Shown here piece after piece: positions 4,285-36,075 of a stretch of DNA of 44,330 nt. Every line of letters starts with the position of its first letter. Positions within the stretch are counted from its first letter, which is position 1. The stretch is from a virus: positions 1-44,330 of the IMG/VR virus record IMGVR_UViG_3300022745_000060; one strand, written 5' to 3'. The notes beneath the pieces were generated by a model, which worked only from the letters and a program-made list of their open reading frames with translations, did not search any database and was not told the DNA's origin. The translations under genes and the position numbers were made by a program.

Positions 4285-5790
4285 TTAAAACGGCAAATTC
4301 CCTTCAAAATTCCGGTTGTCTGACTGGATTGGTTCTTGCAACGGTACTATGTTCGGTTGCTCCGACTTGACTAGAAACTGGTTAGAGGCGGATTGTACCT
4401 GTTCTTCCTGCCATTCCCACCATGACCCGGTGCGACCGTCAAAAGCCCGGTTTTTAGCGATAATATATTCGCAGTCGTACCTATTGTAAGACGTTCCTTT
4501 ATAGTTATAGCGCGTCACGATTTGCCCGCCTTCGTGGTGTTGTTCGCTCCAATCCTCGTATGCACCAGGCCGAAACAAAAGCAGCATCCAATCCCCTGCG
4601 TGTTCCATTGCGCTAGACCCTAGTACATCCTCTTTATGAGGTCTTCTATCTGCGCGGGTGTCTACACCTCGGTTGAACTGAGTAAGCAGTACCCCAAGTA
4701 TACCAGCGGCTTTATTGAACGCTGAAAAGTCTTTTGATAGCTTTGAAAGCGTCTTTACATCGTTTCCGCTGTTGTCGATCTTATCTATTCCGGTTTCACA
4801 AAGTTGGATATAGTCCAGGCAATAGGCAAATAGATCATACTTGCGAATGCACCAGCGGATTTTTTGCCGTATCAGCGTTCCTTTGTTGGTCGTTTCCTTC
4901 ATATCGAAAACGTAAAAGGGTAGATTTGAAACCCGCTTCAAAGCGTCTGAAAGCATCTTCATTTTATACTCAGGTAGTACCAGTTTATACTTTCCAGTAG
5001 CTTCATCAAATACACGGCTTGACAAATCCTTCATCGACAATCCGCTTTCGATCTTGTACACCCGCTGCCAAATCTGTTTTTTGGTAAGCTCCATTGAGAA
5101 GAATGCAACAGGCTTTCCGCTTTTTGCCAAATCCAAAAGCAACTTCAAAGCCTTTTCGGTTTTCCCCGTTCCTGTCGTACCAGCAATAAACCCAGTTTGG
5201 CCTTTTTGGACGCCGCCTGTAATCTCGTCGAATTCAGGCCAACAGGTAGATACTCCAATTTGCCCTTGCTCTATGTCTTGCCAAGCTTCATACATTTCAT
5301 CGCCTCGCGTCTTTTCTGGTTCTGGTTCTGAATAATCTGCCATTCGTTCTTGTACATATGCCCATGTTTCGCTTGGGTGGTACTGGCTATATTGCCCATT
5401 TTTCCTATCAAGCATCTGAGCATAAGCATCTGCGTAAATACCCAAATGCAATTCAATGTCGTATTCCTCTTTTAAAAATTCGATTGCAGAACTACATGTT
5501 TCAGGCTGTGAGTCCATAATCAAATCTGTAATGTCTCCCCACTTCGATGCGGCAATTTGCACATCCCAAGACATCATTTTGTTTACGTCCAAATCGTACA
5601 TCCACTCATAAATGACTCGAAAATGCTTGAACATTTCAGGTTTCAAAACCTTGTTGGCAATTGAAAAATATTCAGGCGCACAAAGCAGTGTTCCAATGAT
5701 ACTAGACTCTACGTGGTAAGTCGTTTTGGCTACGTCTTTTTGTTGGTTCTTGTTCATATCGCTAAGATTGATTTGTAAACATTGCGCCAT
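4285..5790 (-). CDS. dnaB: DnaB-like replicative helicase
   Basis: 501 residues. The N-terminal domain ESSIIGTLL is typical of DnaB. A linker leads to a RecA-type core with Walker A GTTGTGKT at about 204-211, the FFSMELT segment, Walker B FAYCLDYIQL, a switch-type LLTQFNRG, and HKEDVLGSSAMEHAGD. It unwinds DNA ahead of the phage fork as a hexamer. It overlaps the 110-residue gene upstream by 37 bases; an internal Met at residue 12 would reduce this overlap, so the start is uncertain. Helicase assignment is firm. Confidence 0.93.
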   Translation of the reverse strand: MAQCLQINLSDMNKNQQKDVAKTTYHVESSIIGTLLCAPEYFSIANKVLKPEMFKHFRVIYEWMYDLDVNKMMSWDVQIAASKWGDITDLIMDSQPETCSSAIEFLKEEYDIELHLGIYADAYAQMLDRKNGQYSQYHPSETWAYVQERMADYSEPEPEKTRGDEMYEAWQDIEQGQIGVSTCWPEFDEITGGVQKGQTGFIAGTTGTGKTEKALKLLLDLAKSGKPVAFFSMELTKKQIWQRVYKIESGLSMKDLSSRVFDEATGKYKLVLPEYKMKMLSDALKRVSNLPFYVFDMKETTNKGTLIRQKIRWCIRKYDLFAYCLDYIQLCETGIDKIDNSGNDVKTLSKLSKDFSAFNKAAGILGVLLTQFNRGVDTRADRRPHKEDVLGSSAMEHAGDWMLLLFRPGAYEDWSEQHHEGGQIVTRYNYKGTSYNRYDCEYIIAKNRAFDGRTGSWWEWQEEQVQSASNQFLVKSEQPNIVPLQEPIQSDNRNFEGNLPF

Positions 5791-6086: not shown

Positions 6087-7006
6087 ACTCTTACCCCCAT
6101 TTTGGAAAATACATCGCCAACGGCTTTCAAATGCGCGTTGCTGGCCTCGATATCTTGTATTGTCAATTCGGGTTTCTGCTCAGTGTTGCGGATAGGTTGA
6201 AAGGACTTTATTGTTTCTGGGTTGTTCTTGTACTGGATAGGGCAGGGAACGACGACGGTTTTGTATTGAATTGCTTTGTTGATCCATGTAGCAATTGCAC
6301 CTCCCAACTTTTCGATCTTCCATCCAGTCTTGTCGTGGTGTAACCAAAATGCCTCTGCCTGATGATTAGCCCAGTTCCAGCAATCAATAATCTGTGGATG
6401 ATCTCTTTTTTTAGCAATTAACTTTTCATAAATTGGCTGTACCAATTCCTCTTGAGTAGGGGGGTAGATGTATTTTATCTTCTTTGCTTTTGACGGAATG
6501 ATTTCTACAACCTTAACCGCTGTTTCATCTACTTGATCGTGAATGGTTGTTAGGATTTCAGTTTCTTCAATTTTGGTTTGTGGTTCTTTCTTTTCTATTT
6601 TATTTAAGACTTTAATTTCTTTCTTTATATACTGTTCATTTTCTGAACACTTACTGTTCATTTTCTGAACACCTACCTGTTCATTTTCTGAACACCCATC
6701 GTTTAGTTTCTGAACATCTTGCTCATAAGCAATAGAGTAGAACTTAGCTGTTGCCCTCTTCAAATCATCACCTATTCGCTCTAAAAGTCCAGCAGAATCC
6801 ATGCGGTCAAAAATCCCTTTGACTGTTCCGCTAGATAACCCTAAAAAATCAGCTATCTTATGGCATCCGGTTTTTGTCCAGCCGTTTACCCCATACTCGG
6901 GATGGGTTTGAGTCTTGTAGATGTAATCTAAAACGCAGTATTCCAGAACGGAAATACCTAAAGCTTTGCGCGGGTTGTGTAGGACGTTGGTGTAAATCCA
7001 GTTCAT
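6083..7006 (-). CDS. Replication initiator-like protein with winged-helix N-terminus
   Basis: 307 residues from the ATG at 7006 (MNWIYTNVLHNP); a longer frame to 7069 runs through a terminator hairpin and is rejected. Residues about 20-95 look like a winged helix (EYCVLDYIYKT, HKIADFLGLSSGTVKGIF, MDSAGLLER), as in lambda O and plasmid-type initiators. The middle is Lys/Glu-rich and contains DNA repeats (6633-6716) that fit an origin. The C-terminus probably contacts other replication proteins. It is the first gene of the leftward operon and has a structured, regulated leader. Confidence 0.75.
   Translation of the reverse strand: MNWIYTNVLHNPRKALGISVLEYCVLDYIYKTQTHPEYGVNGWTKTGCHKIADFLGLSSGTVKGIFDRMDSAGLLERIGDDLKRATAKFYSIAYEQDVQKLNDGCSENEQVGVQKMNSKCSENEQYIKKEIKVLNKIEKKEPQTKIEETEILTTIHDQVDETAVKVVEIIPSKAKKIKYIYPPTQEELVQPIYEKLIAKKRDHPQIIDCWNWANHQAEAFWLHHDKTGWKIEKLGGAIATWINKAIQYKTVVVPCPIQYKNNPETIKSFQPIRNTEQKPELTIQDIEASNAHLKAVGDVFSKMGVRV
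6633..6716. repeat. Four iteron-like repeats inside the initiator gene, candidate origin
   Basis: TGTTCA-TTTTC-TGAACA occurs at 6633-6649, 6655-6671 and 6678-6694, with a degraded copy at 6700-6716 that keeps TTTCTGAACA. Spacing is 22, 23 and 22 bases. The middle copy is translated in a different frame (VQKMN rather than CSENEQ), so the DNA, not the protein, is what is conserved. An A-rich tract (minus strand, below 6633) lies next to the repeats, like the unwinding element beside the iterons of lambda ori in gene O. Confidence 0.7.
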
Positions 7007-8610: not shown

Positions 8611-9711
8611 TTGAAATTAATCGACATACTGCAAAATCCAGAAAACCCGCGAGTGCTACGGGATGAAAAGTTTGCAAAGCTAAAGCAAAGCATTCAAGAG
8701 TTTCCAAGAATGATGTCACTCCGGCCTATTGTGATTGACAACATGGGAATGATACTTGGCGGTAACATGCGTTACAGGGCTTTACAGGATTTAGGGTTTA
8801 AGGAAATACCGGATGATTGGGTTAAGCGTGCAGACGAATTGACAGCGGAAGAAAAACGGCGGTTTATTATTGCGGATAACGTCGGATTTGGGGAGTGGGA
8901 TTTTGACGAGTTGTCAAATAATTGGGATGTCGAGGATTTGGAGGCATGGGGGCTTGATGTGCCAGGGTTTGAAGATGAAAAACTTGAGGCACAAGAGGAT
9001 GATTATGAAGAACCTGAAAACATTCAAACAGATATTATTTTAGGCGACTTGTTTCAAATCGGCAAACATCGCCTTTTGTGTGGGGATAGCACAATAAGTG
9101 AAAACATTGAAAAAGTAACTCAAAGGGAAAGTGTTGACTTTATCTTTACTGATCCTGATTACTCAATGGAAGATGAAGGATTATTTTCCTGCTATGCAAA
9201 CACATTACAATTGAAAGCAAAAGCATCTTTGTGGGTTTGTGCCGACAAACAAGCTGTAAAACTTGCAATGAATGATTTTGAGAACTTTAGCAGCTTTTTT
9301 ATCCATGATTTTAAAGTACCTACATTGATATCAAACACAAGGGCAATGCAGCGCCACAATATGATTGTTTGCTTTGGTAGTTGTGCAATCAAAAATAGGT
9401 CGGACGGGTTTGCAACGATTGTGCCTATTGCTACAGAAAGAACACTTGAAAGTCACAAGGTTTTTAGAATGGCAAAACGGGTCGGACTGCCAGCGGCTTT
9501 TATAGATCATTTTACAGATGCAGGCAATATAATTGTTGATATTTTTGCGCATAGCGGTTCGACAATTGTTGCAGCGCATCAATTACAACGCGTGTGCTAT
9601 GCAATAGAAATTGACCCGCGTTACTGTTATTTAATTATTGACCGCTTGTTGAAGCTCGACCCTAGTTTAGTTGTTTTGAAAAATGGGCAACCTTATTCAA
9701 ATATTCCGTAA
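8611..9711 (+). CDS. ParB-domain DNA methyltransferase with altered catalytic motifs
   Basis: 366 residues from a TTG start: the ParB-like domain (residues 1-60, NPENPRVLRDEKFAKLKQSI, RPIVID, LGGNMRYRAL) begins at once and no ATG precedes it in frame. The methyltransferase half has the order expected for N6-adenine/N4-cytosine enzymes, catalytic motif first, then the AdoMet motif. The catalytic motif is TDPDYS at 180-185 instead of DPPY, and the AdoMet loop is IFAHSGST (about 311-318) instead of a FxGSGT type. It may protect phage DNA or be inactive. It lies just before the terminase, a usual place in such phages. Confidence 0.8.
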   Translation: MKLIDILQNPENPRVLRDEKFAKLKQSIQEFPRMMSLRPIVIDNMGMILGGNMRYRALQDLGFKEIPDDWVKRADELTAEEKRRFIIADNVGFGEWDFDELSNNWDVEDLEAWGLDVPGFEDEKLEAQEDDYEEPENIQTDIILGDLFQIGKHRLLCGDSTISENIEKVTQRESVDFIFTDPDYSMEDEGLFSCYANTLQLKAKASLWVCADKQAVKLAMNDFENFSSFFIHDFKVPTLISNTRAMQRHNMIVCFGSCAIKNRSDGFATIVPIATERTLESHKVFRMAKRVGLPAAFIDHFTDAGNIIVDIFAHSGSTIVAAHQLQRVCYAIEIDPRYCYLIIDRLLKLDPSLVVLKNGQPYSNIP

Positions 9712-21734: not shown

Positions 21735-21762
21735 GGCCGTGCTGAAAAGTGCGGGCTTTTTT
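21735..21762 (+). terminator. Imperfect intrinsic terminator upstream of the RAMP cassette
   Basis: GGCC(G)TGC ... GTGCGGGC with mismatches/bulge, followed by six T (21757-21762). It closes the preceding operon. Confidence 0.65.
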
Positions 21763-21763
21763 A

Positions 21764-21794
21764 TTTTGTTATTAAAAATATTATATTATCTTTG
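21764..21794 (+). promoter_or_regulatory. Host-type promoter of the RAMP cassette
   Basis: TTG at 21766-21768, 18 bases, TATCTTTG at 21787-21794. The -7 box is identical to that of the leftward early promoter, unlike the TAACTTGC boxes of the neighbouring late operons. Transcription should start at about 21800. Confidence 0.7.
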
Positions 21795-21799
21795 ACTTA

Positions 21800-21890
21800 T
21801 CCTTTGAACGGAGTGATGTACGCTCAAAGGAACAATTAGCAAATAAAATTGCTAACCTTGGCTGTCTGTACATCACCGGACAGCCTTTTT
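21800..21890 (+). ncRNA. Three-hairpin leader with exact loop-loop complement and terminator
   Basis: Hairpin 1: TCCTTTGA (21800-21807) with TCAAAGGA (21824-21831), loop containing GTGATGTA (21813-21820). Hairpin 2: TTAGCAA (21836-21842) with TTGCTAA (21849-21855). Hairpin 3: nine-pair stem 21860-21868 with 21877-21885, loop exactly TACATCAC (21869-21876), then six T. Loop 3 is the full reverse complement of the GTGATGTA in loop 1. It ends 12 bases before the ATG of the RAMP-like gene, so it is a leader, or a stand-alone RNA that also acts as one. Confidence 0.75.
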
Positions 21891-21902
21891 TATTTTATTA
21901 AT

Positions 21903-22538
21903 ATGGCCACTAAAACAGTTCAAAGCCCAACGGTGCAAATTAAAGCACCAAATTTTCAAGTAATTGAAGTTGAAATTGTAGGAACTGCGCCTTTTATGCA
22001 AGCTCGCTTTTCTCAAAAGTCGATGCTACAAATGGCCGACAAGATGAAAGCAGGGTCTACCGCTACGGGTAAAAAAGTTAGAAACGCCCGTGACTTCGAC
22101 GAAGACTTTGAGCAGGCAAAGCACATTTCAATGGATGGATGGGTTGGCATTCCAGCTAGTGCCTTTCGTTCTGCCTGTATTCGGGTGTGTTCTCTTGTTG
22201 GGTTCAAAATGACTCAGGCAAAAATGTCAATCTTTTTTGAAGCCGATGGCGAGGACAAGGTAGACGGCATTCCACTTGTAAAATTAATCGCAGGCGAACC
22301 AGAAAAATCCATGATGGCAACCCGAAATGCTACGGGAGTTGCTGATTTGCGTTGCCGTCCACTATGGCGCAAATGGGGTGCAAAGCTTCGGGTAAAATTT
22401 GATGCCGATCAATTCACTGCTCAGGATGTAATCAACTTAGTTCACCGAGCTGGTGTTCAATGCGGCGTTGGCGAAGGTAGACCATTTTCAAAAGATTCAA
22501 ACGGCTTAGGCTATGGGACTTTCACAATCAAAAATTAA
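21903..22538 (+). CDS. RAMP (Cas7-like) fold candidate
   Basis: 211 residues from the ATG at 21903; an upstream frame to 21849 would run through the terminator hairpin. Signatures in RAMP order: strand and turn EVEIVGTAPFM (22-32), GIPASAFRSACIR (82-94), which fits the IPGSSLKGxxR helix of Cas7/Csm3 proteins, and a C-terminal glycine loop CGVGEGRPFSKDSNGLGYG (187-205). Similar proteins are known in other phages without a defined role. It may coat RNA. It overlaps its partner gene by 26 bases and is followed by the pentamer array. Confidence 0.6.
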   Translation: MATKTVQSPTVQIKAPNFQVIEVEIVGTAPFMQARFSQKSMLQMADKMKAGSTATGKKVRNARDFDEDFEQAKHISMDGWVGIPASAFRSACIRVCSLVGFKMTQAKMSIFFEADGEDKVDGIPLVKLIAGEPEKSMMATRNATGVADLRCRPLWRKWGAKLRVKFDADQFTAQDVINLVHRAGVQCGVGEGRPFSKDSNGLGYGTFTIKN

Positions 22539-23025
22539 ACAGATTGCAAAGTTTGCGGATGGCTACCATGCCCCCGCTGGACTTAAAGCACAGACTGCCC
22601 TTGATGCGCTTTCAGATATTGAAAGTACAATAGGGCTTACACCGAGAAATGTTGTTGAAGCTAGTCGAAGCCCTTTAGCCGCTTTGCATCCATGTTTTGA
22701 ATGGAGCGACGATGTAGCGGCGGATAAATTCAGGCTTCACCAGGCATCAACCTTGATTAGATCTGTAAAGGTTGTAATTGAGGATGCAGAACCGATTGAA
22801 TACAGGCCATTTGTTCACGTGGTTGAAAACAGTGAACCGCAATACAAAAACGTTTCTTTTTTGTCTATTGACCAGGAAAAGGAAGTTGAAGAGAGTTTGA
22901 AAAAGTTCTTACTGTCTGCTCAAAAATCTTTAGACGAGTTTATACAGATCACCAAAAACAAGAAACGCAAAGCCCAACTTCTGAAAGCTCAGAAAAATCT
23001 GCAATTGGCCATTGCTGCTGTTTAG
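22513..23025 (+). CDS. Partner protein of the RAMP-like gene
   Basis: 170 residues. Start within the RAMP-like gene. A central conserved-looking stretch RNVVEASRSPLAALHPCFEW, then SDDVAADKFRLHQASTLIRS, followed by a beta segment and a long basic C-terminal helix (SLKKFLLSAQKSLDEF, KNKKRKAQLLKAQKNLQ). I recognise the middle motif as one found in phage proteins, but know no function. Its stop codon TAG runs directly into the first tetramer of the pentamer array. Confidence 0.7.
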   Translation: MGLSQSKIKQIAKFADGYHAPAGLKAQTALDALSDIESTIGLTPRNVVEASRSPLAALHPCFEWSDDVAADKFRLHQASTLIRSVKVVIEDAEPIEYRPFVHVVENSEPQYKNVSFLSIDQEKEVEESLKKFLLSAQKSLDEFIQITKNKKRKAQLLKAQKNLQLAIAAV

Positions 23026-23273
23026 GCAGGTGCGCCTAGGCCTGCTGCGGAAGTGAATGCAGCCGATAGGCGAAGCAGGCGAGGATCGGCATGGTACGGA
23101 TCGGTAAGGACTAGACCGGAAAGGCAGGCGAGGTATGTCATGGAACGGAGGGGACGCGTGAGGACTGGATTAGCAGGATTGGAACGGTGCGGAGAGCAAA
23201 GGAGAGAACCGGAGAAATAAGGCAGGCACGGCGAGGCCTGGAACGGAGGGGTTGGGGCGGGAGAGCAGACGCA
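23025..23273 (+). repeat. GGNNN pentamer array with 49-base super-period
   Basis: Non-coding, purine-rich and T-poor. Five consecutive units of exactly 49 bases (23029, 23078, 23127, 23176, 23225), each nine pentamers plus a final NGCA tetramer. The tetramers (GGCA, AGCA, GGCA, AGCA, GGCA, CGCA) end at 23028, 23077, 23126, 23175, 23224 and 23273. Of 45 pentamers 33 begin GG and 40 begin G, while the other three positions vary. It spans the stop codon to just before the terminator. Not a CRISPR, not a simple tandem repeat. Confidence 0.85.
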
Positions 23274-23277
23274 ATCA

Positions 23278-23306
23278 GGGAATGGTCAAAAGCCATTCCC
23301 TTTTTT
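23278..23306 (+). terminator. Intrinsic terminator closing the RAMP cassette
   Basis: GGGAATGG (23278-23285) pairs with CCATTCCC (23293-23300), then six T. Confidence 0.9.
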
Positions 23307-23331
23307 ATTTTGTTGAATTTGCGTAACTTGC
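23301..23331 (+). promoter_or_regulatory. Late promoter fused to terminator, copy 3
   Basis: T-run 23301-23306, 17 bases, TAACTTGC at 23324-23331; drives the tape measure gene. Confidence 0.55.
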
Positions 23332-23347
23332 AAACAAATCTTTCGTA

Positions 23348-25903
23348 ATGGATACAACTTGGAGGGTAAAAGTAGATGACAGCAATGTTGAGCAATATTT
23401 GGAAGACTTAGCCAAAGGGGTTGATAAATCAACAGAAGAATTCAACCAACTTGAAAAAGCCGCCACCGATGCACTGCAATTAATAGCCCAAAATACCGCA
23501 GCTACTAATCAAAAGATGGATGAGTACATAAAGGCGCTGGAAAAATCAAAACAAAAAGGGAAGGAAGCTGCTGAAGAAACTAACAAGTTTAGCCGAGGAT
23601 TGAAAACCTTATTTGGTAACTTGTCAATCGGTGGTGTATCGCTCAACGACTTATCCGATAGCCTGCAAAACGTAAAAAGCGGGTTGAAAGATGTTGGCTC
23701 AAGCAGCCAAGGTGCAGCTAAGGACGCGGCTGGAGCTGCAAAAGGTTTCGGTGTGCTTCGTCTTGGTGCATTGGCTTTGGTTGCCGTCGTTGGTGCTGCG
23801 TTGGTTGCTGCATTTTCAAAGTTTCAAGGTAACTTAGACAAAGTGCGTGTAGGATTGGCACAGGGAAAAATTGCATTAGATATTAGCATTACTGCACTCG
23901 GAAAGTGGGGCAATCAGTTGATACAGGCCGCAACGGGTCAAAAGTCCTTGAGGGATGCAATAAAGGATGCGTCGGCAGAAACAGCAGATTTTAACATACA
24001 GATCAGGCAGCAAATTGCCCTTGAAGGCAAGCTCGAAAAGCAGCGCATTGGACTAGAGCGACAAAAGCAAGAACAAACCGCAACTGCCGCACTTAGAAAG
24101 CAAGAAATTGAGCAATTGAACCTGATTGCGGATGATACAACAAAATCCTTTGCAGCACGTGAAGCAGCAGCAAAAAAACGCGGCGCATTATCAGAGCAAC
24201 AAGCAAAAGCAGATGAAAAGCGGATTCTTACCGAAATTGGGTTAAACGCAAGAATATCAGGCGGGCAAGAACAGCAAATCAAATCTGCAAAACAGATTAT
24301 TGCACTATCAAAGGAAGGCACACTCACAACTGAGATATTGGCAAAGCGAATCGAACAATCAGGCGTTAGCCAGGCCGAATCATTCAAGCGGGCAACACAG
24401 ATTTTCGCGCAAATTGGAGAACTTGGAGACGCGCAAGAAACCCTGCTAGGCATTCAATCCGAGGCATTCAATCAAGCGCAATCTATCCGCGCTGAACAAT
24501 CACAGGCAGCATTAGCCGAAAAGCAGCGGATTGAAGGGTTACAAAAATCAATTCAAGACCTACTTGCTACAACCACAGAGGCACGGGTAAAGCTTGGTGA
24601 TGAAAACGATGGCATCCAATTACAATTTGCGAATGCTACTGCTGAGGTAGAACAGCTTAAAGCGGAATATACTCGACTTGCGAAAGAACTTGGAACAGGT
24701 GAAACTGCGCAAGATATTGAACGACTGTTCAAACCTTTACAGGATATTGCTAATATTGATTTTGAAAAGGCAAGCTTTGGCAAATCATTGGAAGTTGTAA
24801 CAGGCGGATTAGAGCGACTATTAAAAGCCGCTACTGATCCGATAACAGGAAATATTGCCGATCTTGTTTCTTCCCAAACTGCAAAGCCACTAGCTGAACG
24901 ATTACGTGCCGATGGGTTGGAAGCGGGAAAAGCACTTGCAGCCGCAATAACTCAAGGTCAAAGTTTAGAAGCAGCCCGGCAAAAAGAAAAAGGGAATGAA
25001 GCCGCAAAGCAGTTGATAGGCCAACTTGCACCGGAAGCCATAAACGCTTTTTTTGAGGCCGAACAAGCCCGGTTTGAGCTGCGAATAGCCCAACAAGACG
25101 CACTGATTGCAAAGACTCAAGAACGATTGGACATTGAAAAGAAAGCTCTGGAAGAACAGCAAAAATTAGCCGATGAAGGACTTGCAAATGATCTAGATGG
25201 AGCAAAGAAACGGGTAGCAGAGCAAGAGCGCCTACTTCGAGACAGCGAAAACAAGAAACTGGAAATTGAACGAAAGGCCGCAAATCAACGCAAGATAATT
25301 GCAGCGGGTCAACAGGCAGTTGAATTGACTTTAGCCGTTGCAAAACTGATTAGTGCGGAAGCGTCAAAAGGCTTAATTGGTCTTGTCCTGGCCGTTGGTG
25401 GACTAGCGATCATCTCCCGACTGGTTGCCGCTGGACGTTCACAGGCCGCAAGCGAAGCAGGAAAAACCCAGAATTTTGCCACAGGTACGGAGCGAGTCCA
25501 TGGCGAAGGAACATGGACAAGTGACAGTATACCTGTGAATCTATCCAAAGATGAACGGGTAATCAAATCTAGCGACAATGCCAAATTAGGCTTCGAGCGG
25601 ATGTCGAATAAACAATTAGTGCATTATGCCCTGCTTGGTCAGCGCGTTCACTCCGACCCACTTTTTGCTTTTGCCATGGGTTTGCGTGGGCAACAAAGCA
25701 AGTTGGAAGAAAGTAAGCTATCATTGCAAGTTGATGTGATGAAGGACGCGTATAAAGAAGCGGCATTAATGGCAGCAGATAAACAAATTGACTATTGGCG
25801 GACACGCCCTATCCAGTATCGTAATGATTTAGGCGAAATGGTGACGGAATGGAAGGAGGGGAATCGGGTTGTGAGAAAGATTGAAGTTTTGGGTGAGGTG
25901 TAA
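23348..25903 (+). CDS. Tail tape measure protein
   Basis: 851 residues, mostly coiled coil and Ala/Gln/Lys/Glu-rich. A hydrophobic segment lies at about 140-160 (GALALVAVVGAALVAAF) and another at about 680-705 (GLIGLVLAVGGLAIISRLVA). The C-terminal part (NFATGTERVHGEG, DSIPVNLSKDERVI) is the usual TMP tail region. At about 0.15 nm per residue a tail near 128 nm long is expected. It is the largest gene after the chaperone block and has its own late promoter. Confidence 0.85.
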   Translation: MDTTWRVKVDDSNVEQYLEDLAKGVDKSTEEFNQLEKAATDALQLIAQNTAATNQKMDEYIKALEKSKQKGKEAAEETNKFSRGLKTLFGNLSIGGVSLNDLSDSLQNVKSGLKDVGSSSQGAAKDAAGAAKGFGVLRLGALALVAVVGAALVAAFSKFQGNLDKVRVGLAQGKIALDISITALGKWGNQLIQAATGQKSLRDAIKDASAETADFNIQIRQQIALEGKLEKQRIGLERQKQEQTATAALRKQEIEQLNLIADDTTKSFAAREAAAKKRGALSEQQAKADEKRILTEIGLNARISGGQEQQIKSAKQIIALSKEGTLTTEILAKRIEQSGVSQAESFKRATQIFAQIGELGDAQETLLGIQSEAFNQAQSIRAEQSQAALAEKQRIEGLQKSIQDLLATTTEARVKLGDENDGIQLQFANATAEVEQLKAEYTRLAKELGTGETAQDIERLFKPLQDIANIDFEKASFGKSLEVVTGGLERLLKAATDPITGNIADLVSSQTAKPLAERLRADGLEAGKALAAAITQGQSLEAARQKEKGNEAAKQLIGQLAPEAINAFFEAEQARFELRIAQQDALIAKTQERLDIEKKALEEQQKLADEGLANDLDGAKKRVAEQERLLRDSENKKLEIERKAANQRKIIAAGQQAVELTLAVAKLISAEASKGLIGLVLAVGGLAIISRLVAAGRSQAASEAGKTQNFATGTERVHGEGTWTSDSIPVNLSKDERVIKSSDNAKLGFERMSNKQLVHYALLGQRVHSDPLFAFAMGLRGQQSKLEESKLSLQVDVMKDAYKEAALMAADKQIDYWRTRPIQYRNDLGEMVTEWKEGNRVVRKIEVLGEV

Positions 25904-31084: not shown

Positions 31085-31729
31085 ATGACTAGCAACCTTA
31101 ACACATATACGGATTGCAGCGGGTGCGACTTATACAGTCTCCCCGCTGCACCTGTGTGTGTACGCAAACCGATCTTTTCGCAAATTACCCGCTTGGTTAT
31201 CCTTCCAAATGCAGCGCAATTACCAGCGGATTGGACAGTTGGCGGAGATTGGGAAGCGGTTGTAAACAATGCAAGCACAACGATTGCTTTTGGGCGCATC
31301 CTTCACGGCAAAGGAGGGCTACCTGACCCAAGTGAGGCAAGTGTAAGTTTAGGTAAAATCGACCGACGCATTACCCGCCGTCGCTACAATCTGGATTTTG
31401 AATTGACTGTGAACAGCCAAACCCGTGAGATACTGCGAAAAATGCAACGTGGGTTGATTGATTTTCGGTTTTGGTACTTCACGGCGGGTGATTGGTTATT
31501 CGGTGGGGCTACTGGCATTAAGCCCTTGGTTGTTTCCGCTGTTTTGCCATTATTGCCAGGTGGCAATGACTTTGAATTAGGCCGAATCCGCATCGAATTT
31601 GCGGCGGATATTGACCCGCTTGGCGCTTATGTGCCTGATTTTGTAAATGCTGACTTGTATTCTGGCTACCTGATTGACAATGCAGGCGATTTCTTAACAG
31701 ATAACTCAGATAAATTTTTAGAGGTATGA
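31085..31729 (+). CDS. Tail tube-like protein, paralog 2
   Basis: 214 residues. Shares with the preceding protein the cysteine-bearing N-terminus (CSGCD, PVCVRKPIFSQI), RRYNLDFELTV, REILRKMQRGLIDFRFWYF, GATGIKPLVVSAVLPLLPGG and an acidic end. It has a 25-30 residue C-terminal extension (NADLYSGYLIDNAGDF). Its stop overlaps the fiber start. Confidence 0.6.
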   Translation: MTSNLNTYTDCSGCDLYSLPAAPVCVRKPIFSQITRLVILPNAAQLPADWTVGGDWEAVVNNASTTIAFGRILHGKGGLPDPSEASVSLGKIDRRITRRRYNLDFELTVNSQTREILRKMQRGLIDFRFWYFTAGDWLFGGATGIKPLVVSAVLPLLPGGNDFELGRIRIEFAADIDPLGAYVPDFVNADLYSGYLIDNAGDFLTDNSDKFLEV

Positions 31730-34700
31730 AAAATATCATCCTTTTTTTGGCTTTCCTTTTGCCTCTTTCGTTGATTGGGCAAATCAATTTTAACACACTG
31801 CCTAGCGCAACAGTTGTAACCCCTACAACTCCCTTCCCTACCGTAAATTCAGGTGGTAATTGGCGCAAGGTTTCAGCGGATTTGATGCGCGCTTTCATTA
31901 TGCCCCGGCCTGTTACAAGGGTATCCCCTACCAACCGCTATGTTTTGGGCTATGTAAATGCTTCAGATTCGCTTCAATACATCCCCGGTGGCCTTATGTC
32001 GCAATTACCGCTTGGTAGCGTAACAATTTCCGCTGCTACAAACTCTCTTACTCTTTCGGGGCTTGGTGGGCTTAACTTCAACACTACATCGTGGGGTTCT
32101 GGTTGGGTGAATAGACTTGCACTAACTAGATCAGGGTCTAGTACGTTGTCCTTACTCAAAGGTGGGCAGACAATATCAATCAGTGCCGATACTTTAACAG
32201 GTGCTTCAATGCGCTGGAATAACATTGGATTTAGAGCAAAATCGGATTCGATGTTCATTACCCCGGAAAGCTTGGACAGTATAACGGTTGGCGAGGCACT
32301 TATAGTTGCTACGAAGTTTTCCGATAAGGCATATATCAAGAGTAAATCTGTTTCAGTTTCTGGTACAGCAGGTGGTGACTTAACTGGAACTTATCCAAAC
32401 CCGACAATCGGCAACAACAAGGTAATTTCTGCTTATGTACTAGATGGAACTTTAGTAAATGCAGACTTTGCAAGTCAAACAATAGACAGCAACAAGGTTA
32501 AAAACGGGGCGATTACTCCAATCAAAATCAACAAAACAGGCGCAACAGGGGGGCAAGTGCTGAAATATAATTCTAGTACTGGTAATGTTGAATGGGCTAG
32601 AGACTCAAGCGTATATACAACTAATGGCAGAATTGCAACGACGCGCACAATAAACTTTGGGTCAGGTGCTACAAATAATAATTTCGGATCAACAGTTTAT
32701 ACTGTGGGGTTAAATCAAAGCAGTCCAGAATGGTCTAGTTTTATGAGGTCACCTAATACTCTTAATTCTACAACTTTTGATCAAAGAAATTCAAATTCAC
32801 TAACCTATATAGGTTTAATCGGTAATACTAAAAATAGGACAGCTAATCCAATTAGATACGATAATTATTTTTCAGGTGACAATAGTACTACATCACTTGT
32901 TGGTTTTTCTGCAACACTATTGGCAAAATCTAATAATCAAACAGGTGCAGTACAGGTAATAGATTCAACAAAAAACAGATACGGATCATTTTTATATTCC
33001 ACTTTTAACGCCACTCAAAAAAACTCAATTGTTGGTTTAGTAAAAGGGGGATTTGGAATTGGGAATACTTATACTAAGTCGTTGAAATCATCCTTTGTTG
33101 TACAAACAAGTTTTACGGATACTACAAACTTATTTAACTGGATCAAAATTGATGATATCGAAAATGATACAACTAGCAATCGAATATCTTTTTACAATGG
33201 TAAATACGTTTTCCCAAACTCAGCACCAGGATCAGGTAACAAAATTATTGAGTGGCAAAGTGGTGTACCAGTCTGGATTTCTACACCTTCGGGTGGCGGA
33301 TCAGGTATCACTGCTTTAACTGGAGATGTAACAGCAAGCGGGACAGGAAGTGTTGCAGCTACGATTGCGGCCAATGCGGTAACATCTGCTAAAGTTGCAA
33401 GTCAAACACTTGACTCTACTGATTTAAAAAATAGAGGAACTACCTTGCTTAAATTAGCTCAAAGTGGGGCTACAAATGGCCAAGTACCGAAGTACAACTC
33501 AACAACTGGCAATTGGGAGCCTGCTGCTGATAACAGCACAGGGGGAAGTACAATAACGGAAAAACGTATTTACTACAGAAATGAGGTATATAAAAACATG
33601 CTAATTAATACCTCAACTGGATTATTAAGTACAGATTCAACAAAAGATGTAACAGACCTTCTTCCAGTAAATCCTAGTGAATCAATAACTATTTACACTG
33701 CAAACGCTTCAAATGTAACTATTTACGGATGGTTTTATAATGCATCAAGACAACCTATTTCAGAAATTAGAAGTAGCTCACTCATAAGTACACCATTAAA
33801 CTCATATACAGTTACAACTCCAAGCAATACAAAGTATATTTGTATCTATGTTAGATATAATAATGGGGTAGACTTTTCCGCGCTACTTAAAATAGAAAGT
33901 ACTTCTAACTACACTTACAACATCCCGATTACACCAGAAAACTATACAGGTACGACATCTTCGAGAATACAGCAAGCTCTTGATTTTGCGAGATTTACAA
34001 CTTCTGCTGTTGAATTAAAGGGTCTTTACTTGATAGATTCTACGATTATCCTTCACTCAGGAAATACTTTGATTCTAAATAATGCACGAGTTAGAATGAA
34101 CACAGGTATGCGGACAAACATGGTGAGAAATGAATCCGTAAAATCGCAAGACTCTATTTTTTCTCGTGGAAATGTCAATATTAAAATCATTGGAATTGGG
34201 AATGCTATTTTTGAAGGGAATGACGACAATTGGGGTAGCGATAATCCAACTGGAGTTGGTTCTAAAAGATGGTCATCAATAGGGATACTTTTTGCTAACG
34301 TTCAAAGATTCGATGTTACTGGAATAATGATAAAAAATACAAAAGCGTGGTCTATGTGTTTTGAACAATGTCAAATTGGGTCAATTACAAATATTACGTT
34401 TGAACAAAATAAAGCTCAAGCAAATCAGGATGGGATAAACATCAGAAGAGGTTCCAACAGAATTACAATTGAAAATGTAAAAGGATACACATATGATGAT
34501 ATGATTGCATTAACAAATATAGAAGCTGCCCCAACAATAAATATATTAGGAGCAAGGAGCTATATGCCTACAAACCCTAAAAAAGAAATCAGAGATATTA
34601 TAATCAAAAATATACAAAGAAAAGCTGTTGGAGTGTTCCCTGCTAACATTCTATACTATGGTGGAATATTACTACTATGTGCTGACTCACTTAAAATACA

Positions 34701-36075
34701 TAATATTACTATTGATGGGGTCACTGGTATAGCACAAATAAATGTTGGATTTCTTGGGTATGCATTGGCATCTGAAGCTACTGTGAATGACCTTTATAAT
34801 ATAAATATTTCAAATACAAATAAAGCTCCAATTTACATTAATCAGCCTATAAAAAATAGTTCATTTACAAATATTGCTAGAATAGATAGCACAGGTTCCT
34901 TTGCGTCAGGTGTATTCCCAAGTGGGTCATATAACAATTTTAGAAAATATCAAGACGGATACCCTGAATTTTTTGATTCAAATAATAATAGGGCTATTTC
35001 AGAAATAAATTCTACAACTTTTGAAGACTTTTCACTTACAAATTCAAATGCGAGTGGGACAATTGGCCTTAAAGTGAAAAATAATCTAGGTAATTATGCT
35101 TATTTGAGAGCATACGGATCAACTGCTACTCCGTCAACACTTCAAAACAAAATGCTTTTTGGGGCTTCTAGTGGGGATTTAATTATTTCCTCAAACGTAA
35201 GTGTCTCTCCACCAACATCATCTAGGATAATACTTAATGCTAATTCATACACTACATCTAATTCAGCAATGGCTATCTTCGGCAGTACCAATAACGTAAG
35301 TATTGGAAATACAATAGATAATGGATACAAACTTGATGTAACAGGGTCTACTAGAACATCAGGTAATTTTGTGATTACATCAACAAATTCTAACGACCTT
35401 AGCAGTGTGACAATTACAAATGATGCTTCAACTAATGCTTTTTTTCGAGTATATGGATCAACTGCAAGTTTAAGCCATTTATCCAACAGAGCAGGATTTG
35501 GAACAACTAGCGATCTCTTACTTTTTACTGATTCCAATTCTGGAAGCGGAGGCTCAAAAGCAGTTAAAATATATGCAGGGGGCTATAATGCAGATCAGGA
35601 ACGAATCCACATAACAAAAGAAGGTGTTCGGATAAATTCACAGAGTAACGCTACGGCTGCATTACATCTTCCTGCGGTTACAGCAACAGCAGGAACTGCA
35701 CCTCTAAAATTCACATCAGGCACAAACTTAACCACACCTGAAGCGGGAGCAGTGGAGTACGACGGTACAGAATTTTACGCTACCAATTCAGGCGCAAGCA
35801 GGACTATTTTAGCCCGTGTCCTAAAAGGTAGCGCAACGCTAGACTTTGGAAGCACGGCGGCGGGGGCGGTAACTGATCTGACTATAACCGTAACAGGTGC
35901 AGCCGATGGTGATGTAGTAAGTTTAAGTGTACAAAATGCAAGCCAAACTGCAACGGGGTCATTTTCAGCGTGGGTAAGTGCTGCAAATACTGTTACGGTT
36001 CGATATAGAATTGCTGCTTTAACTGGATCAGAAGACCCCGCAAGTGGGACATTTAAAGTAACAGTAACGAAATAA
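31726..36075 (+). CDS. Large tail fiber / spike with signal peptide and beta-helix
   Basis: 1449 residues. The first 19 residues (MKNIILFLAFLLPLSLIGQ) are a textbook signal peptide. Then a repeat-rich shaft: GGDLTGTYPNPTIGNN and LTGDVTASGTGSVAATI, each followed by NxxxTSAKVxSQTLDSxxL-like segments and Gly-rich linkers. Residues about 720-1060 form a pectate-lyase-type right-handed beta-helix (SIGILFANVQRFDVTGI, NQDGINIRRGSNRITIENV), which may degrade host polysaccharide. The C-terminal domain is Thr/Ala/Gly-rich. The middle (about 32600-35600) is AT-rich, hinting at acquisition. Confidence 0.8.
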   Translation: MKNIILFLAFLLPLSLIGQINFNTLPSATVVTPTTPFPTVNSGGNWRKVSADLMRAFIMPRPVTRVSPTNRYVLGYVNASDSLQYIPGGLMSQLPLGSVTISAATNSLTLSGLGGLNFNTTSWGSGWVNRLALTRSGSSTLSLLKGGQTISISADTLTGASMRWNNIGFRAKSDSMFITPESLDSITVGEALIVATKFSDKAYIKSKSVSVSGTAGGDLTGTYPNPTIGNNKVISAYVLDGTLVNADFASQTIDSNKVKNGAITPIKINKTGATGGQVLKYNSSTGNVEWARDSSVYTTNGRIATTRTINFGSGATNNNFGSTVYTVGLNQSSPEWSSFMRSPNTLNSTTFDQRNSNSLTYIGLIGNTKNRTANPIRYDNYFSGDNSTTSLVGFSATLLAKSNNQTGAVQVIDSTKNRYGSFLYSTFNATQKNSIVGLVKGGFGIGNTYTKSLKSSFVVQTSFTDTTNLFNWIKIDDIENDTTSNRISFYNGKYVFPNSAPGSGNKIIEWQSGVPVWISTPSGGGSGITALTGDVTASGTGSVAATIAANAVTSAKVASQTLDSTDLKNRGTTLLKLAQSGATNGQVPKYNSTTGNWEPAADNSTGGSTITEKRIYYRNEVYKNMLINTSTGLLSTDSTKDVTDLLPVNPSESITIYTANASNVTIYGWFYNASRQPISEIRSSSLISTPLNSYTVTTPSNTKYICIYVRYNNGVDFSALLKIESTSNYTYNIPITPENYTGTTSSRIQQALDFARFTTSAVELKGLYLIDSTIILHSGNTLILNNARVRMNTGMRTNMVRNESVKSQDSIFSRGNVNIKIIGIGNAIFEGNDDNWGSDNPTGVGSKRWSSIGILFANVQRFDVTGIMIKNTKAWSMCFEQCQIGSITNITFEQNKAQANQDGINIRRGSNRITIENVKGYTYDDMIALTNIEAAPTINILGARSYMPTNPKKEIRDIIIKNIQRKAVGVFPANILYYGGILLLCADSLKIHNITIDGVTGIAQINVGFLGYALASEATVNDLYNINISNTNKAPIYINQPIKNSSFTNIARIDSTGSFASGVFPSGSYNNFRKYQDGYPEFFDSNNNRAISEINSTTFEDFSLTNSNASGTIGLKVKNNLGNYAYLRAYGSTATPSTLQNKMLFGASSGDLIISSNVSVSPPTSSRIILNANSYTTSNSAMAIFGSTNNVSIGNTIDNGYKLDVTGSTRTSGNFVITSTNSNDLSSVTITNDASTNAFFRVYGSTASLSHLSNRAGFGTTSDLLLFTDSNSGSGGSKAVKIYAGGYNADQERIHITKEGVRINSQSNATAALHLPAVTATAGTAPLKFTSGTNLTTPEAGAVEYDGTEFYATNSGASRTILARVLKGSATLDFGSTAAGAVTDLTITVTGAADGDVVSLSVQNASQTATGSFSAWVSAANTVTVRYRIAALTGSEDPASGTFKVTVTK

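Follow-up and report, generated by a model that had tools for sequence, protein, structure and literature searches.

The window, by which we mean the whole 44,330-nucleotide stretch of DNA analyzed here (IMG/VR virus record IMGVR_UViG_3300022745_000060), carries a compact block at 21765 to 23306. The original prediction was of a self-contained cassette made up of a leader, a protein, a partner, and a periodic array, and all of these parts were found:

21765..21794, plus strand: Bacteroidetes-type promoter-like site, TTTG-N18-TATCTTTG (pattern match)
21796..21885, plus strand: structured leader with a hairpin, an AT hairpin, and a terminator-like hairpin plus T6 at 21860-21885 (folding)
21903..22538, plus strand: vipr, encoding a 211-aa RAMP/Cas7-fold protein, phrog_4652 (homology and predicted fold)
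22513..23025, plus strand: gene for a 170-aa Vap-like accessory protein, phrog_15946, adjoining vipr with a 26-nt overlap
23026..23270, plus strand: vrRNA-like array of five 49-nt units (starts at 23026, 23075, 23124, 23173, and 23222)
23277..23310, plus strand: hairpin terminator ending the operon and the array (10-bp stem, T-rich tail)

Boundaries, leader, and genomic setting of the block

Terminator-like sites were located at 21737-21754, 21860-21885, and 23277-23301. Since the region contained seven such sites where 2.9 would be expected, only these three, with long T runs, were considered convincing; the first and the last bound the block, as had been predicted. A host-type promoter had also been proposed, and the site at 21765-21794 does fit the Bacteroidetes consensus, but the pattern TTTG-N18-TATCTTTG occurred five times in the window versus 2.3 times expected by chance, so that the promoter is plausible rather than proven. 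The structured nature of the leader was confirmed, with a folding energy of -33 kcal/mol for 21796-21902 (z = -5.45 versus shuffles). The leader contains the hairpin UCCUUUGA..UCAAAGGA and the terminator hairpin at 21860-21885, followed by U6. Within 21796-21885, all 8 nt of the loop in the last hairpin (UACAUCAC) could pair with the loop of the first (GUGAUGUA), and the complementarity between the two loops spans 8 to 9 nt (GTGATGTAC / GTACATCAC). Judged by complementarity, a kissing-loop switch is possible, as is a small RNA with a terminator end just 5' of vipr. No Rfam family, the hammerhead included, was detected in the block or in the whole window.

Elsewhere in the window, a 1449-aa protein with a GH28-like domain (31726-36075) is partly related to Flavobacterium phage FL-1. 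This protein and the promoter type give the best hint of the host, which is probably a member of the Bacteroidota. A ParB-N / N6-N4 methyltransferase fusion (8611-9711) and a DnaB helicase (4285-5790) are typical phage modification and replication genes. A 22-bp repeat with the inner palindrome TGTTCA-TTTTC-TGAACA is present in about four copies at 6630-6716, inside a mechanically called ORF on the minus strand; the copies look like iterons or operator sites. The block had been placed just before the tape measure gene; the 851-aa ORF at 23348 is a plausible tape measure by its size and position, but it has no profile support.

The 211-aa protein is a Vipr homolog with a predicted RAMP fold

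VIPR, an RNA-guided DNA-silencing system related to CRISPR, was reported in 2026 (PMC13142463), and the structure of SUSP1 Vipr is present in the PDB (36pp). When the 211-aa protein of the window was used as the sole query, phmmer matched its C-terminal core to SUSP1 Vipr (36pp_D) with an E value of 5.9e-6, and the protein also matched a Felix-O1-like Vipr. SUSP1 Vipr was the only PDB sequence match, and Csm3 was not among the sequence matches. A profile search of the family against SUSP1 Vipr gave an E value of 5.5e-28, a figure that is inflated because the search profile included a Felix-type member. By tblastn, matches to the 211-aa protein were obtained in 150 phage records, among them a homolog with 62% identity in Cyanophage Cy-LDV1 and homologs in Mycobacterium and Gordonia phages, along with short matches in Felix-O1-like phages. 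Besides these phage groups, many IMG/VR contigs contain relatives of Vipr. The conserved motifs of the protein are IPASAFR and a C-terminal glycine loop, GVGEGRP, and residues G184, G188, R193, and G205 were invariant across 50 homologs.

A RAMP-like or Cas7-like protein had been predicted at this position, together with a structure prediction and a fold search against Cas7/Csm3 as the means of verification. An AlphaFold2 monomer model, built from an alignment of 46 sequences comprising the window protein and its IMG/VR homologs, had a pLDDT of 91.3 and possessed the Cas7/Csm3 (RAMP) fold. The top Foldseek matches in the PDB, using a PDB set that predates 36pp, were Csm3, Cmr, and other Cas7 subunits (best E value, 5e-6; probability, 1.0), and all 50 matches listed were CRISPR effector entries of the Cas7/Csm/Cmr/Cas7-11 type. 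Structural realignment of the model with a subunit of a Csm complex gave a Z score of 11.5 over 149 residues. Both sequence and model therefore identify the protein as a RAMP-fold homolog of a known Vipr.

The 170-aa partner has a conserved core, LHxxFEW-DD..QAR, and a helical hairpin, and its family adjoins vipr in most loci, as is the case for the accessory (vap) gene of VIPR. The helical C terminus that had been noted for the partner appeared in the model (pLDDT, 95.2) as a two-helix hairpin at residues 119-169. A fold search with this model yielded no credible match to a solved fold; the C-terminal helical hairpin alone resembles many proteins. No similarity between the Vap family and the Felix-type accessory was detectable with hhalign. 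Both phrog_4652 and phrog_15946 are PHROG families of unknown function, and searches of Pfam, NCBIfam, and PADLOC returned nothing useful for either protein.

A punctuated array of pentamers follows the two genes

The array extends from the stop codon of the partner gene (23026) up to the hairpin terminator. Each unit consists of GCAGG, then about nine H-NN-GG pentamers, and then a 4-nt register break. The register had been read as GGNNN; the five-base step was correct, but the actual pattern is H-NN-GG, interrupted at 49-nt intervals by a 4-nt break. The variable dinucleotides of the five units are as follows:

Unit 23026: GC TA CT GC AG AT GC TA GA
Unit 23075: GA TC AT AC TC AA CT CC AA
Unit 23124: GA AT AT AC GG CG GA CT TT
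Unit 23173: TT AC GC GA AA GA CC GA AA
Unit 23222: AC GA CT AC GG TG CG GA

The array was scored as a dynamic-programming chain of GG at five-base steps, with four-base breaks allowed. Its chain score was 22.9, whereas the scores of 2000 dinucleotide-preserving shuffles averaged 3.3 and reached 7.9 at most; no chain elsewhere in the 44-kb window came near this value. Autocorrelation of GG with GG gave peaks at 5, 10, and 49. A plain period-5 test for G with a single global phase detected no array signal because the 4-nt breaks shift the register.

The pentamer motif published for VIPR is GGY, with a pyrimidine as the third base, although "a related consensus" is also allowed (PMC13142463). In the window, tandem pentamers with a constant scaffold and a hypervariable NN were present, with GG intact at 28/39 positions and with a third base that was A in 24/44 pentamers (purine, 25/44; pyrimidine, 19/44). 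Conservation of GG was higher in the units at 23075-23123 (8/9) and 23222-23270 (7/8). By the chain measure, most arrays of the window's clade keep 85 to 100% of their GG pairs. The window array is therefore among the most degenerate of its clade, but it is not clearly an outlier, since the arrays of loci L196 and L172-L176 also keep only about 78 to 80% by the same measure; those of relatives L007 and L134 are similarly noisy and contain A.

Arrays and vipr genes occur together across loci

When 120 IMG/VR stretches were selected by an exact GGCNN array pattern alone, and not by protein, a Vipr homolog was present in the fetched DNA of 80. Conversely, a same-strand array lay beside vipr or vap in 68 of 74 Vipr loci, nearly all of which were protein selected; an array on the opposite strand was seen only as a single chain in L006 and its duplicate, L171. 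The DNA flanking tblastn-matched vipr genes nearly always held the partner gene and GGC NN GGC NN tracts. Steps within the arrays were five bases except at the four-base breaks, which were spaced by 5n+4 (modes, 44 and 49 nt). Alignment of 334 breaks gave the consensus AHGGCAGGC, and the interior NN carried about 0.00 to 0.07 bits of information. Units mostly comprised eight or nine dinucleotides, equivalent to 24 to 27 bp of target.

Several loci showed features of their own. Very long arrays, of up to 283 GG steps, were found in L080 (3192-4775), L046, and L090; those of L046 and L090 have almost no breaks, and guide delimitation must therefore differ there. In Mycobacterium phage Donkeykong (L002, 2471-2818), the array lies upstream of vipr inside an annotated protein gene, gp48, an annotation that is probably wrong because the array occupies that stretch. 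Complementarities of the form a-b-a'-b' (e.g., CCGGT/ACCGG with CCGGCT/AGCCGG) were observed in L134 (3945-3990), L137 (3140-3185), and L135 (5920-5965), directly 3' of upstream arrays and between these and vipr; comparison of L134 with L137 suggests covariation of the stems, which resemble the tail pseudoknot reported for SUSP1. In Gordonia phage ODay (L003, 2980-4735), a vipr-array-vap cassette is flanked by the tail assembly chaperones on one side and the tape measure gene on the other; vipr cassettes elsewhere were seen in early regions, close to genes for a repressor or an excisionase.

The variable dinucleotides resemble codon positions 1 and 2

In SUSP1 VIPR, the protein is led to double-stranded DNA by the variable dinucleotides, which form a guide with gaps; the GG scaffold does not carry the message, and the skipped target base is the codon wobble position (PMC13142463). 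Dinucleotides that resemble codon positions 1 and 2 are what would be expected if the skipped base is a wobble position. Interior dinucleotides were therefore fitted as a mixture of the six codon phases as observed in genes from the very loci that supplied the arrays. For 4328 dinucleotides from 131 loci, the mixture was 0.65 codon positions 1+2 in sense, 0.35 positions 1+2 in antisense, and 0.00 for the others; the other phase pairs were 183 and 718 log units worse, and reversal of each dinucleotide was 329 log units worse. In the 47 loci of the window's clade, the corresponding values were 0.72, 0.24, and 0.04 for the remainder. Even for the 44 dinucleotides of the window alone, codon positions 1+2 in sense were favored by 10.3 log units over readings in other phases, and only 0.025% of letter shuffles did as well (P = 0.00025). 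The test on the window alone rests on this letter-shuffle control and not on offsets, because the scaffold read at offset 4 also looks coding-like (GA, GC, and GT are common codon starts). The skip-one reading is supported, since only a three-base target step gives such a phase lock. A purine preference of the protein at the first variable base during RNA binding could contribute in part to the signal, but neither the antisense share nor the reversal control would be readily accounted for in this way.

The two halves of one unit were correlated in their sense-versus-antisense score (r = 0.22; confidence interval [CI], 0.14 to 0.30; 575 units), whereas the correlation across a break was 0.05 (CI, -0.09 to 0.20), as it was between distant units. 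The breaks thus appear to separate guides, given that the strand signal is common within units and not across breaks; the within-unit and cross-break intervals overlap, and the result is suggestive.

Searches for targets

Under the skip-one rule, the unit at 23075-23123 would specify the 27-bp site GANTCNATNACNTCNAANCTNCCNAA. Exact skip-one patterns derived from four window units revealed no natural target of the array in IMG/VR: the patterns had 2, 0, 1, and 0 matches, in unrelated phages, with about one chance match expected per pattern if the collection is assumed to hold some tens of Gb. The matched loci (L130, L131, and L201) were rejected as targets. A match, with one mismatch, between an L006 guide and rival vipr genes was likewise rejected when shuffled guides matched equally well, as was the guide's exact IMG/VR match, an RNA-polymerase-like gene read in another phase. 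With low-complexity guides removed, no skip rule stood out clearly in an all-versus-all search among the loci, and one guide of a Bradyrhizobium relative, searched against 242 genomes, gave only chance matches, the same as the control.

Comparison with known systems

The window shares with SUSP1 VIPR (type II; 36pp) a homologous RAMP-fold Vipr, a single adjoining accessory gene, carriage by a phage, and an intergenic run of tandem pentamers in which GG is constant while NN varies. In type II VIPR (SUSP1 and P. fulva), each guide is followed by an invariant structured 3' tail. In contrast, the units of the window abut with a 4-nt break, the sole hairpin terminator stands at the end of the array, no per-guide tail is present, the third base is mostly A, and the accessory protein has no detectable similarity to the Felix-type accessory. 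Given the lack of a per-guide tail and an accessory that is not demonstrably vap1, the window was not assigned to type II. Other counterparts are Cyanophage Cy-LDV1, Gordonia phages ODay and UmaThurman, and Mycobacterium phage Donkeykong, which have a vipr homolog and an accessory of the same family; the genes of their vipr loci are annotated as hypothetical. Their NNGGY arrays, with GGCAGGC breaks, are cleaner and richer in GGC than that of the window. In ODay, the cassette is directly 5' of the tape measure gene, as it plausibly is in the window. With the Cas7 proteins of type III CRISPR systems (Csm3/Cmr4), the window protein shares the fold and the glycine loop and probably also the coating of a guide RNA by subunits at a regular spacing. 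The step is six bases of RNA in type III and five in VIPR, however, and type III Cas7 recognizes RNA whereas the VIPR relative (SUSP1) recognizes DNA.

Discussion

We conclude, with a probability of roughly 0.87, that the block is a phage-carried VIPR operon encoding a Cas7-like Vipr, a Vap-like protein, and an array of about five guides for RNA-guided silencing. The fold, the homology to SUSP1 Vipr, the array, its unit structure, and the codon-phase signal, all computed here, form the basis of this reading. A new phage ribonucleoprotein system had been envisaged; the kind is not new, since VIPR was already reported in 2026 (PMC13142463) and a Vipr structure has been deposited. The window adds a member whose array lacks tails and is punctuated by breaks.

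Three other explanations were weighed. The best fold matches, Csm3 and other Cas7 proteins, would suit a stray csm3/cmr4-like gene left with a degenerate CRISPR array from a type III system. Yet PADLOC gave no matches for the four genes tested, Pfam likewise identified no cas gene among the genes tested, no repeat-spacer array (direct repeats with unique spacers) was found at the locus, the only PDB sequence match is a Vipr, and the layout of two genes plus pentamers recurs in unrelated phages; such a remnant is scarcely credible. That the array acts as a DNA or mRNA element (a packaging site, a G-rich regulator, or an mRNA 3' stabilizer) rather than as guide RNA is in accord with its G richness and its location in the operon's 3' untranslated region, ahead of the terminator. 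Against this, the array is on the coding strand of vipr, its dinucleotides carry coding-phase information, its units are punctuated, and such RNA copurifies with SUSP1 Vipr (PMC13142463). We regard this explanation as improbable, if less so than a CRISPR remnant.

The locus could also be a true family member in decay, a remnant whose array retains too few GG pairs for loading or targeting. Partial decay is possible, as the array ranks among the most degenerate of its clade: GG is intact at only 28/39 positions, where most clade arrays keep 85 to 100%, and 25/44 third positions are purines. Nevertheless, two units retain nearly all of their GG pairs, the units begin at exact 49-nt intervals, the codon-phase signal survives in the variable bases, both ORFs, the leader, and the terminator are intact, and several related arrays are comparably noisy. 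A nonfunctional remnant is therefore unlikely, though it is the strongest of the three alternatives to a VIPR operon.

In the proposed VIPR operon, a single transcript would encode Vipr and the Vap-like protein and carry the array of about five guides in its 3' untranslated part. Vipr subunits would coat the array RNA in five-base steps, so that the GG scaffold is bound and the two variable bases are displayed, and each unit of about nine dinucleotides would read a 27-bp DNA site with two bases paired and one skipped, the skipped base being the one at the codon wobble position. One guide would be parted from the next by a 4-nt register break (AHGGCAGGC). The likely effect would be sequence-specific silencing of rival phage or prophage genes in the same host. 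For SUSP1, formation of a Vipr-vrRNA complex, repression of target DNA, and copurification of the array RNA with Vipr have been described (PMC13142463), and by analogy with that work we would expect ribonucleoprotein formation, skip-one recognition of double-stranded DNA, and silencing here. The array RNA had been suggested to serve as the template of the protein; it is most likely the RNA partner of Vipr, but the guide role of the variable dinucleotides, as published for SUSP1, had been missed. More tentatively, and at somewhat below even odds, the window may represent a clade in which contiguous guides lie in the 3' end of the vipr mRNA instead of in separate tailed RNAs, are told apart only by a one-base register deletion (AHGGCAGGC), and have their ends set by Vipr itself or by slippage of the filament at the break, with a scaffold that in the window tolerates GGA and a missing G.

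Together, these results extend a family that was described only very recently, and has been proposed as an ancestor of CRISPR effectors, by a member that probably comes from a Bacteroidota phage. They indicate from sequence alone that in many natural arrays the dinucleotide code follows codon-sized steps, with guide boundaries probably marked by a small register break. The arrays of the window's clade can thus be decoded without knowledge of a target, and the sequence unit to be tested is thereby identified.
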